Assembly: GCA_944376125.1 (NCBI GenBank) | Contig: CALWBQ010000008.1 | Span: 62,001 to 126,000 of the forward strand | From: an uncultured Lachnospiraceae bacterium | GTDB taxonomy: Bacteria; Bacillota; Clostridia; Lachnospirales; Lachnospiraceae | DNA: 64,000 nt | Direction: 5' to 3' | In this document: positions 34,836-63,259 of the stretch, piece after piece | Layout: each line of letters begins with the position of its first letter | Numbering within the stretch: the stretch's first letter is position 1 | Program-made: the position numbers and the translations under genes | Notes under the pieces: generated by a model | Databases searched by the model: none | Told to the model about the DNA's origin: nothing | What the model saw: only the letters and a program-made list of their open reading frames with translations

Positions 34836-35090
34836 AAATAAAAAAGCCACCCGCTCCCTCTCATCTAAGGGACCGAATGACTCGGCGGTACCACCCAAAT
34901 TAGCGCCCTGTCCAGGCCGCTCACTTCATTAAACCGTTAACGCCGGAATACGCCCTGGTTTCCCAGAGAAGCTCCAAGGCCGGTTCAGCACCCAGGGACA
35001 CGAAGGCCTTCCACCAGCGGCCTTCTCTCTGGAGAGTGTGAATGCTTACTAATCCTCTTCACAGCTGCAATCTTTCAGCTAAGTTGTGTA
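34836..35090 (-). promoter_or_regulatory. T-box leader of proS (proline)
   Basis: The antiterminator T-box sequence TGGGTGGTACCGCCG is at 34884-34897 leftward and a terminator hairpin ending in TTTTTT lies at 34838-34860, just before the gene. The long stem I region lies at about 34920-35085. A CCG triplet (34981-34983) follows GAA at the place where the trp leader in this window has TGG, so it is the proline specifier. This region explains the 390-base gap upstream of proS. Confidence 0.9.
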
Positions 35091-60130: not shown

Positions 60131-60655
60131 TCAGTTCTGGTCTATCGAGCCTGCTTTTTCCAGTTCATTAGCAATATAATCCTCCACCTGGTTCACAGGG
60201 ATGTCCAGGGCAACGGCCAGCTCTCCATAGAGGAAGGCTTCGGCCACCTTCTGGCTCTCCCGCTCGTTGGCCGACAGGGTCTTTCCGCTCTGCTTCCGCT
60301 TTATCCCGTTTTGAAAGATCCCCTTCATCAGAGCGATCCGCTCCTTCTGGTCCCCCGAATAGAGAACCTCGCGGCAGAACTGGGCCTGCTCCTTGTAATT
60401 GCTGTAGGCCTTCGCCTCTATCTCAGGCATCATCCTGATCAGCTCCAGCGCCTCATCCCTGGTAATGACAGGGCGCAGAGACATTTTCCCCGTGGGCCCT
60501 CCGCTGACCGGGACATAGAGAGTCGTCTCCCTGTCAAAAACCGGTGACAGTTTATAGTACAATTTGTCCTTTTCAGAGAAATCCAGAGCGGCAACGCCCT
60601 CCACCTTACAGACGCCTCTGGTGTCATGCATTACGTAATCATTTTCCTTAAACAT
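60131..60655 (-). CDS. CarD-family transcription regulator
   Basis: A 174-residue protein whose first 60 residues are a CarD/CdnL/TRCF RNA-polymerase interaction domain (KENDYVMHDTRGVCKVEGV). The rest is helical, with basic segments near 115-135 (NGIKRKQSGKTL), as in the DNA-binding part of CarD proteins. CarD stabilises open promoter complexes in other bacteria. ATG at 60655 has AAGGAG upstream; a TTG just before is not needed. A weak hairpin with TTTTT follows the stop. Confidence 0.8.
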   Translation of the reverse strand: MFKENDYVMHDTRGVCKVEGVAALDFSEKDKLYYKLSPVFDRETTLYVPVSGGPTGKMSLRPVITRDEALELIRMMPEIEAKAYSNYKEQAQFCREVLYSGDQKERIALMKGIFQNGIKRKQSGKTLSANERESQKVAEAFLYGELAVALDIPVNQVEDYIANELEKAGSIDQN

Positions 60656-60777
60656 CAAAAAATCCCACTCCTTTCCCTCATTTTATTATACCGCTTCAAA
60701 TTTCCGAAGGTAAGCAAAAAATTTTTTTCATCATTTCTCCCAATAAAACCCTACCTGTTTTTTGTTCAAAACGCCCT

Positions 60778-60806
60778 TTGAACATTTTTGCAGTTTTTCG
60801 TATAAT
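60778..60806 (+). promoter_or_regulatory. Promoter of the 79-residue gene
   Basis: TTGAAC (60778-60783) and TATAAT (60801-60806) spaced 17 bases. The predicted start of transcription (about 60813) is immediately before the first structured hairpin. Confidence 0.75.
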
Positions 60807-60815
60807 AATTATACA

Positions 60816-60928
60816 ACGTGTAGCTTTATGCATAATTCCGGTTGTGTATATGCTGCGCGTTTTTCGTTTATGGAGGCAGGGCGACCGGCCTTCATATTCA
60901 GTGATGTCTGAGAAACAGACATATTTTT
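60816..60928 (+). promoter_or_regulatory. Terminator-like leader, copy 1 of a paired element
   Basis: At the expected 5' end of the transcript, ACGTGTAGC (60816-60824) pairs with GCTGCGCGT (60852-60860), 9 bp with two G-U. Inside it TATGC pairs with GTATA, and the tract TTTTTCG follows. A second hairpin, ATGTCTG/CAGACAT with TTTTT after it, lies at 60904-60928. The first hairpin matches the terminator after the gene (61197-61240) in stem, inner stem position and loop words GC-TAA-TCC-G. It may be an attenuator. Confidence 0.6.
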
Positions 60929-60947
60929 CAGAAAGAGAGGGGTTCAA

Positions 60948-61187
60948 GTGAAACGAGTAAAAGCGGCTTGCATCTGCCAGACACTTCACTTTTTGTTGAA
61001 GGAAGATGTCGGACATGACTACGCAATGACTTTGGTGAAGCAGGAGGTAGAGCAATATAAGAAAGGGCTGGATCGCAACCACACCAAGTACAAGATCCTG
61101 GAAGAAACCCAACAGCCTGATGGTTCCATCATCGTCAAAGTAATCAAACAATACAACTCCAGTCCGGTGGGAGATTATCTGGACTAA
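60948..61187 (+). CDS. Conserved-looking 79-residue protein of unknown function
   Basis: A 79-residue basic protein starting at GTG 60948, with GAGAGGGG 6 bases upstream. It has no signal peptide or membrane span. It begins MKRVKAACICQTLHFLL, has a central acidic/basic helical part (VKQEVEQYKKGLD) and ends in YNSSPVGDYLD. Codon use and the ribosome site support a real gene, but I do not recognise a named family. It is flanked by two copies of one structured terminator-like hairpin, which makes an RNA-controlled role plausible. Confidence 0.7.
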   Translation: MKRVKAACICQTLHFLLKEDVGHDYAMTLVKQEVEQYKKGLDRNHTKYKILEETQQPDGSIIVKVIKQYNSSPVGDYLD

Positions 61188-61196
61188 ATGGAAAAA

Positions 61197-61250
61197 GCGT
61201 GTAGCCTGCGGCGTAAATCCAGCGATGCAGTGCTGCGCGCTTTTATTTTA
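61197..61250 (+). terminator. Terminator after the 79-residue gene, copy 2 of the paired element
   Basis: GCGTGTAGC (61197-61205) pairs with GCTGCGCGC (61232-61240) in the same 9-bp form as copy 1, with CTGCG and TGCAG as the inner stem and a loop sharing GC-TAA-TCC-G. TTTTATTTTA follows directly. Confidence 0.78.
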
Positions 61251-61277: not shown

Positions 61278-62684
61278 ATGGAACAATCAAATCAATTTCT
61301 GGGGACAGAGCGCATCGGCAAACTGATGACGCAGTATGCTGTTCCCTGCATTATCTCACTTCTGGTGGGCGCTCTTTATAACATTGTGGATCAGCTGTTT
61401 ATCGCAAACGCCAGCTATCTTGGCTCCTACGGCAACGCCGCAAACACGGTCGTATTTCCGCTGACCGTCGTGGCTCTGGCAATCGCCGTAATGGTCGGCG
61501 ACGGCTGCTGCGCCTTCGTCAGCATCTGCCTGGGCAAGGGAGACGGTGCCTCCGCCAAAAAAAGCGTCGGGAACGCTGTAATTCTGAGCGTGGTAAGCAG
61601 TCTGATACTGACTGTAATTTATCTGGTTTTCCAGGATCAGATCATCGCCATGTTCGGCGGCACCGTCAACGAAGAGACCTTCTATTACGCAAAGGAATAT
61701 TTCTTCTACATCACTCTGGGAATCCCGTTTTACATGTTTGGGCAGGCGCTCAACCCGATCATCCGCGCTGATGGAAACCCCAAATTTGCAATGGCTGCCA
61801 CCCTGGTCGGCGCTATCGCCAATATTATTCTTGACCCGGTTTTTATTTTCATTTTCGGATGGGGCATGATGGGGGCCGCTGTCGCCACCGTAATCGGGCA
61901 GATTCTGACTGCTGTTCTCTCCATCTGGTATATCCTGCACATGAAAATCATCAAGCCGTCTAAAAAGGACTTCGGCCTGGACGGTCATATCTGCAGCAGA
62001 ACACTGTTCCTCGGCATCACCAGTTTTCTGTCCCAGATCTCTCTGGTGGCGGCAATGGCAGCCATCAACAATATGCTGCGAAAATACGGAGCAGCAGATG
62101 AAATCTTCGGGCAGGCCCAGTACGCCCAGATTCCCATGGCCGTTGTGGGAATCGTCATGAAATTCTTCCAGATTGTCATCTCCATTGTTGTGGGAATGGC
62201 CGCCGGATGCATCCCCATCGTGGGCTTCAATATGGGCGCCGGCAAGAAATCCCGGGTCAGAGAGCTGTTTACAAAACTGCTGGCAGCGGAAGCGGCTGTG
62301 GGGGCAGTTGCCTTCATACTGGCAGAATTCTTCCCCCAGCAGCTGATCTCCATCTTTGGTGCAGCCAACGAGAGCAGCTACTACACGGAATTTGCCATCC
62401 GCGCATTCCGCATCTATCTGTGCATGATTATACTTGCCTGCATCAACAAAGCCTGCTTTATCTTCCTGCAGGCCATGGGCAAGGCAGCAGCCTCCACAGC
62501 TCTCTCCATGATCCGCGAAGTGGTGTTCGGCGTCGGATTTGCCCTCCTTCTCCCGGTTTTCCTGGGTCTGGACGGCGTCCTGTTTTCTATGCCGGTCTCT
62601 GATATTTTGACCTTTATCGTAGCAATTTTCCTTATTTATCGCACTTACAAAGAATTAAATACGAAAGGAGTGCAGGTATCATGA
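61278..62684 (+). CDS. MATE-family efflux transporter
   Basis: A 468-residue exporter with twelve hydrophobic helices in two halves. The N-terminal part has LLVGALYNIVDQLFIANA (near 30) and the second half repeats the same topology from about 245 on. It resembles the MepA-like branch (sodium/drug antiport). The ATG has AAAGGGAAA upstream, and the gene is overlapped by the following kinase-like gene by 4 bases (ATGA). The substrate cannot be told from sequence. Confidence 0.9.
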   Translation: MEQSNQFLGTERIGKLMTQYAVPCIISLLVGALYNIVDQLFIANASYLGSYGNAANTVVFPLTVVALAIAVMVGDGCCAFVSICLGKGDGASAKKSVGNAVILSVVSSLILTVIYLVFQDQIIAMFGGTVNEETFYYAKEYFFYITLGIPFYMFGQALNPIIRADGNPKFAMAATLVGAIANIILDPVFIFIFGWGMMGAAVATVIGQILTAVLSIWYILHMKIIKPSKKDFGLDGHICSRTLFLGITSFLSQISLVAAMAAINNMLRKYGAADEIFGQAQYAQIPMAVVGIVMKFFQIVISIVVGMAAGCIPIVGFNMGAGKKSRVRELFTKLLAAEAAVGAVAFILAEFFPQQLISIFGAANESSYYTEFAIRAFRIYLCMIILACINKACFIFLQAMGKAAASTALSMIREVVFGVGFALLLPVFLGLDGVLFSMPVSDILTFIVAIFLIYRTYKELNTKGVQVS

Positions 62685-63259
62685 AAAACCGAATCATCAC
62701 CATCAGCCGTGAATTTGGGAGCGGCGGCCGTACCATCGGGAAAAAGACGGCTGAAAATCTCGGCATCCCCTGTTATGACAGCGAACTGATCCAGAAGATT
62801 GTGCAGGAAAGCGGCTTTACAGAGAGCTACGTCAAAAATGCCGACGAATCCGCATCCTCCGGTTTTCTGGGAGCTGCCTTTTCGTCCCGCACCTTTGGCC
62901 CTACAAACGAAGATTATCTGTGGAGCATCCAGCAGAAGGTCATCCTTGACCTCGCTGAAAAAGGCCCCTGTGTGATCGTGGGAAGGTGCGCCGACTACAT
63001 TCTCAGAGACAAAGCCGGCTGCCTTACCGCGTTTATCCATGCCAGCCTGGAATACCGCGCAGAGCGGATCGTAAATGTGTACGGGGAACGCGAAGAATCC
63101 CCCGAGCAGCGAATCAGAGAGAAAGACAAGCGCCGGGCGGCCTACCACCGCTTTTATACAAACATGAAATGGGGCTACGCGAAAAACTATCACATCTCCC
63201 TGGACAGCGGCGTCCTGGGCATCGAAAAATGTGTGGAGCTCCTGCAGGCGCTGTACTGA
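62681..63259 (+). CDS. Cytidylate-kinase-like family protein
   Basis: A 192-residue P-loop kinase-like protein. ITISREFGSGGRTIGKKTAE (residues 6-25) has the Walker-type start of the cytidylate kinase-like family, with GRTIGKK as the phosphate loop. VIVGRCADYILRD (near 93) and REKDKRRAAYHRFY (near 145) are the substrate and lid motifs. Such proteins often sit with transporters in Lachnospiraceae, and their substrate is unknown. Its ATG overlaps the MATE stop, so it is translationally coupled. Confidence 0.82.
   Translation: MKNRIITISREFGSGGRTIGKKTAENLGIPCYDSELIQKIVQESGFTESYVKNADESASSGFLGAAFSSRTFGPTNEDYLWSIQQKVILDLAEKGPCVIVGRCADYILRDKAGCLTAFIHASLEYRAERIVNVYGEREESPEQRIREKDKRRAAYHRFYTNMKWGYAKNYHISLDSGVLGIEKCVELLQALY

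Follow-up and report, generated by a model that had tools for sequence, protein, structure and literature searches.

Two hairpins in a 64,000-nt stretch of an uncultured Lachnospiraceae genome (contig CALWBQ010000008.1; herein, the window) represent the same putative RNA switch, which has apparently not been described before, spans about 32 nt, and overlaps a transcription terminator. We consider it likely that each hairpin is a cis-acting transcriptional switch, that is, an orphan riboswitch candidate. With rather less assurance, we favor a new riboswitch class (~32 nt) of gut Clostridia that would sense a toxic compound and switch on MATE, ABC, and MFS exporters as well as a CarD-like protein and a new family of 79-residue proteins, with tandem U and D copies acting as serial gates around a gene. 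The proposal is based on the sequences themselves: conservation of the element, two competing predicted folds, T tracts, the position relative to promoters, and the nature of the target genes.

The locus contains, in this order on the forward strand, a promoter, the U hairpin, the 79-residue protein gene, the D hairpin, a MATE exporter gene, and an overlapping cytidylate-kinase-like gene. The promoter reported in the original prediction is present at 60778-60806, with the sigma-70-type sequence TTGAAC-17-TATAAT. Its -35 is overlapped by an upstream box, TTTTGTTCAAAACGCCCTTTG (60762-60782, forward strand; regular-expression match at 60762). Boxes of the type TTtTnnAAAn2-6CTTTG were found over the -35 in 25 of 50 U copies vs. 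0 of 27 D copies, with a background of 0.003 per 75 nt; the box may add a second control layer, either as an operator or as a promoter extension. The U-type full element (60815-60867; 53.2 bits with the covariance model R1) includes the terminator hairpin at 60815-60861 and a short T tract, whereas the aptamer-like fold, with pair support from relatives, occupies 60815-60845 (R2, 36.8 bits). The latter is formed by P1 (60815-60818/60839-60843, with 60840 bulged), the pair 60820-60838, P2 (60823-60824/60830-60831), and an internal loop with UAA at 60833-60835 and CC at 60838-60839. In this element the terminator hairpin excludes the aptamer fold, and vice versa. The gene for the 79-residue protein (60948-61187, GTG start) is supported by homologues, alignment, and an AlphaFold2 model. 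A terminator-like hairpin, ATGTCTGAGAAACAGACAT followed by ATTTTT, is located at 60904-60922, between the U copy and this gene, and the leader is longer in the window than in most of the relatives whose upstream regions were listed.

The D-type full element (61193-61248; R1, 56.9 bits), located 5' of the MATE gene, is composed of the terminator hairpin at 61193-61244 and a T-rich tail. Its aptamer-like fold (61196-61226; R2, 38.6 bits) contains P1 (61197-61199/61220-61223, with 61221 bulged), the pair 61201-61219, and P2 (61204-61206/61210-61212). The MATE-family exporter of the subfamily MATE_A (61278-62684; PF01554, 7e-33; TIGR00797 above the cut-off) is the main target of the element. The cytidylate-kinase-like gene (62681-63259; PF13189, 3e-50) overlaps the MATE stop and is probably co-transcribed with it; of the loci long enough to show it, roughly half have a kinase-like gene 3' of the MATE gene. 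The divergent neighbor, a CarD-like gene (60131-60658, minus strand; PF02559, 1.9e-11), has no element in front of it in the window, while CarD-like genes of other genomes do carry the element. The sole Rfam match in the window is a T-box leader (RF00230, 106.6 bits) at 34865-35071 on the minus strand.

Both hairpins of the original prediction were found where it had placed them. The U hairpin folds with -23.6 kcal/mol (z -5.1) and the D hairpin with -30.4 kcal/mol (z -5.6), values equaled by 0 of 200 shuffles in either case; on the opposite strands, one fold is not significant and the other is much weaker. The window contains the pattern GTGTAGC-N18-34-GCTGCGC at two places (0.02 expected), and a slightly looser pattern has no other occurrence in the whole genome. 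The covariance-model search for further copies, proposed earlier, likewise returned only these two in this genome. The outer stems do exist; they are predicted to have 10 bp (60815-60824/60852-60861) and 13 bp rather than 9 bp each, the longer one beginning at 61193 and including the A/T flanks. The earlier claim of selection on RNA structure holds among the relatives, with 39 double-change cells vs. 12.7 in shuffles (0/500), and this covariation far exceeds that within the single pair of copies in the window. The second hairpin is not merely the terminator of the 79-residue gene, being a second copy of the element that precedes the MATE gene.

The whole hairpin was rejected as the conserved unit. 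The hairpin is present, as drawn earlier; conservation is far higher in the 5' half than in the 3' strand with which it pairs (position 14 has 1.78 bits and its terminator partner, position 57, 0.60 bits), and the conserved part is an alternative fold of the 5' half. This second fold consists of P1 (ARY/RYU), P2 (GCN/N'GC), and a near-invariant internal loop between them. The consensus reads A-R-Y-G with C-(R)-G-Y-U for P1, G-C-N with N'-G-C for P2, and UGUR/GUAANUC for the internal loop. Among 196 distinct copies, pairs incompatible with the terminator score high in addition to the terminator pairs. Pair 9-42 of P1 is formed in 192/192 copies (AU, GC, GU, UA), pair 10-41 of P1 in 193/193 (CG, UG, UA), and pair 16-31 of P2 in 196/196 (GC, AU, GU), whereas the terminator pairs 16-55 (169/195) and 17-54 (169/194) are kept less well and the third pair of P2 is formed in just 138 of 191 cells. 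The key P1 and P2 pairs are formed, with compensatory changes, in all 133 distinct sequences of a non-redundant aptamer set, for which 109 double-change cells were counted vs. 47 in shuffled data (0/500); sliding the pairing partners abolishes this signal.

A tree-aware null, in which the observed changes were re-placed on the tree (our own test, not R-scape), was also applied. By G-test at 0/400, it supports the aptamer pairs 9-42 and 18-29 and the terminator pairs 12-59, 15-56, and 9-62. Pairs 10-41 and 16-31 are less well supported, with modest p-values (pairing, 0.0025; G-test, 0.065 and 0.02, respectively). Nearly invariant pairs are uninformative under this null, and pair 8-43 showed no covariation in the test. 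The inner pair 14-36 (UA, UG, CG), formed in 14 of 14 copies with re-wired terminators (see below), was omitted from the model because it is not significant in the large set. Since terminator pairs covary as well, both folds appear to be selected, as judged from the alignments. Across the copies, the stable terminator hairpin is followed by a U-rich tract, as in intrinsic terminators; the terminator would be the OFF state rather than the whole element.

The strongest single argument is the re-wiring of terminators. In 186 copies the terminator takes the 5' strand of the aptamer. In 14 loci, chosen by predicted fold (11 scanned loci as well as L246, L265, and L272, the last in a genome of another class), it takes the 3' side of the aptamer (NGCGUAAGUCC) and no longer constrains the 5' strand. 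P1 and P2 are nevertheless retained in these loci with changed pairs; UA is found three times at 9-42 and three times at 10-41. The same predicted fold kept with a re-wired terminator is, at the sequence level, the build of a transcriptional ON riboswitch, in which a putative expression platform competes with the aptamer fold. Terminators that pair with either side of one aptamer provide a clean natural experiment in switch evolution.

In total, 31 tandem loci were found, with two copies 9-280 nt apart. Copies of type U have a closing G-U and A or G at position 2, and those of type D a closing G-C. By this division, which is partly phylogenetic, the typed first copies are U in 30 of 31 loci and the typed second copies are D in 29 of 29; the window has the same order, U then D, with the 79-residue gene between them. 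In 25 of the 31 tandem loci the first copy lies 6-10 nt downstream of the end of a -10, vs. 2 of 31 second copies, and the U copy therefore begins at about the first transcribed base, in agreement with the earlier placement of the element at the RNA 5' end. The D copy would act as a second gate.

The attenuator suggested in the original prediction is supported, in the following form. About 32 nt of the nascent leader could fold as a small aptamer, with P1 and P2 around the internal loop. By default, the later 3' strand would capture the 5' strand, forming the intrinsic terminator and keeping the downstream gene off. Stabilization of the aptamer by a signal would block the terminator, so that the gene is transcribed; the signal is most likely a toxic small molecule that the MATE pump exports. 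In the window, the U copy, located where the transcript starts, would gate the 79-residue gene and the D copy would gate the MATE and kinase-like genes, placing the exporter behind two serial gates. The element probably turns exporters on in response to the signal compound. We infer the ON polarity and the signal, a small-molecule ligand linked to the exported substrate, from the exporter targets and from the embedded-aptamer precedents of HMP-PP (PMC6478431) and guanidine-IV (PMC7736828). We prefer a small molecule because conservation flanks both sides of the internal loop and diverse exporters share the element.

The distribution of the element was analyzed with R1, a covariance model built from 59 copies. 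Matches were found in 28 of 145 relatives, in 102 of 397 sampled Lachnospiraceae genomes, that is, in about a quarter of them, and in 27 of 291 genomes of the class. Target counts are based on 173 copies retrieved with their surroundings. Genes for MATE exporters of two subfamilies are located downstream of 109 of these copies and CarD-like genes downstream of 20, the remaining targets including genes for ABC exporters, MFS exporters, kinase-like proteins, and 79-residue proteins. As in known riboswitches, a covarying aptamer-like structure is found in the 5' leaders of functionally related genes. The element immediately precedes the gene in 14 of 14 orthologues that are at least 66% identical to the window MATE protein, one being a diverged copy detected by the second model alone; among homologues with 41-53% identity, the element was found in 2 of 11 (E below about 0.003). 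Transfer on plasmids was also considered and rejected, as PLSDB contains no match to the MATE protein at E 1e-100. One locus (L240, G691:C65:48200-54800) is a compact regulon cluster, in which a CarD-like gene, an ABC exporter gene, and a MATE gene within 6.6 kb are preceded by one copy each. In four loci (L206, L224, L231, and L239), the element is followed by a small ORF of one membrane-protein-like family (MPKTKxQGxIFGxIMSYAM...); one of these ORFs, run against Pfam, had no match at 0.001. Additionally, three IMG/VR contigs (L278, L280, and L281) carry a clear U copy with a promoter before a 64-residue ORF, and at least L280 contains long ORFs resembling tail proteins; the switch may also be present on phages or prophages.

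A regulon that includes CarD-like and TetR genes, together with a short conserved loop flanked by stems, which is typical of protein-binding sites too, would also suit an attenuator in which some RNA-binding protein, distinct from the 79-residue protein, reads the internal loop and sets the terminator or antiterminator. We regard this as unlikely, though the least improbable of the alternatives: no protein tracking the element was found, and conservation on both sides of the internal loop is aptamer-like. The CarD-like protein was rejected as an obligatory partner, since it does not track the element; CarD homologues, mostly 25-40% identical, occur in 70 of the 145 relatives vs. 28 for the element.

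The 79-residue protein, which had been proposed to bind the element, is a conserved beta-alpha-beta-beta protein (AlphaFold2 pLDDT 94). The window protein had no match in Pfam, and structure searches yielded common beta-alpha-beta-beta matches only (best Foldseek E 0.05; VIA Z below 6), so no function was inferred for it. Homologues were retrieved in 80 loci, mostly from Lachnospiraceae, Ruminococcaceae, and other Clostridia. Loss of the upstream hairpin from such loci, or 5' ends downstream of it, had been named in advance as evidence against the prediction; about 55 of the 80 retain an upstream copy, and the promoter positions put transcript starts at the element. About 29 have a copy after the gene, such copies being found where a MATE gene comes next. 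Homologues lacking the element share another structured leader, CUCURUUCAGGCUC-GCCGYAAYAGG...GGAGG (L027-L035, L043, L048-L055, L066, and L067), for which no Rfam match was found in the two loci examined.

Attenuation of the pyr operon by PyrR involves repeated copies of a leader, which precede a gene of regulator size and a transporter gene. The window has a similar layout of leader, putative regulator, second copy, and transporter, and would fit autoregulation in which the 79-residue protein binds both copies and controls its own gene and the MATE gene. The 79-residue genes and the element do co-occur above chance (p 0.003). Unlike in the PyrR system, however, the presumed regulator gene is absent from most element-bearing genomes: among the 145 relatives, the element occurs in 28 and the gene in 7, with both in 5 of the 28 and the gene missing from the other 23, and many 79-residue genes have the other leader instead of the element. 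This distribution nearly refutes PyrR-like autoregulation, which we hold to be very improbable, and the 79-residue protein was rejected as the sensor on this basis; the protein is therefore a regulon member and target. It is equally improbable that the elements, for all their resemblance to terminators, are plain intrinsic terminators kept alike by recent transfer with the MATE gene, as they have an invariant loop that terminators do not require and a 5' strand conserved far above its partner, lie before genes with a promoter directly upstream, and are shared by unrelated gene families.

The riboswitch candidate is preferred, and the earlier suggestion of a candidate new system is supported. 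Rfam 15 yielded no match on the element, either at the gathering score in the window and 20 loci or up to E 5 in a set of five loci that includes three with the element. No description of the motif was found in the literature, where it may have been listed earlier without a name, e.g., in the supplementary alignments of a human-microbiome structured-RNA survey (PMC8040213). The element is apparently an undescribed orphan riboswitch candidate embedded in a terminator.

Among known systems, guanidine-IV (mepA/GGAM-1) and the gut-enriched Gd4v are also leaders before MATE genes of Firmicutes, with two hairpins and a pseudoknot in about 95 nt, the 3' hairpin being the terminator (PMC7736828, PMC9788692, PMC12186494). 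The element resembles guanidine-IV as a pre-MATE leader with an intrinsic terminator overlapping the sensor. It differs in that one hairpin of ~50 nt suffices, with a single stem-internal loop-stem as the core; judged from the published descriptions rather than with a guanidine-IV model, it lacks the two-hairpin pseudoknot. Many single copies have just one hairpin, beginning at the promoter, and the two copies in the window are separated by a gene. The commonest targets of guanidine-IV are SMR (sugE) genes, and Gd4v has transaminase genes as targets; neither was recognized when the genes downstream of the 173 copies were classified or listed, with family-library runs covering part of them.

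In the HMP-PP (thiS) riboswitch, an ON switch also found in tandems, the aptamer lies inside the terminator hairpin and the two folds are mutually exclusive (PMC6478431). The element shares the terminator-embedded aptamer, the exclusive folds, the proposed ON polarity, and the tandem arrangements. Its sequence is different, HMP-PP genes are those for thiamin, and HMP-PP tandems are formed with TPP riboswitches rather than by U and D copies of one motif. For the yjdF azaaromatic riboswitch, the candidate ligands are toxic compounds that are exported (PMC4793209, PMC7266159). A similar role is possible for the element, which has no Rfam match and differs from yjdF in both motif and target gene.

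Orphan riboswitches have repeatedly exposed unsuspected metabolites and detoxification systems, such as those for fluoride and guanidine. The element described here is very small, occurs commonly among Lachnospiraceae, and draws attention to a group of multidrug exporters. Identification of its ligand would name the exporter substrate, assign functions to the CarD-like protein and the 79-residue protein, and reveal the way in which gut commensals detect the compound.
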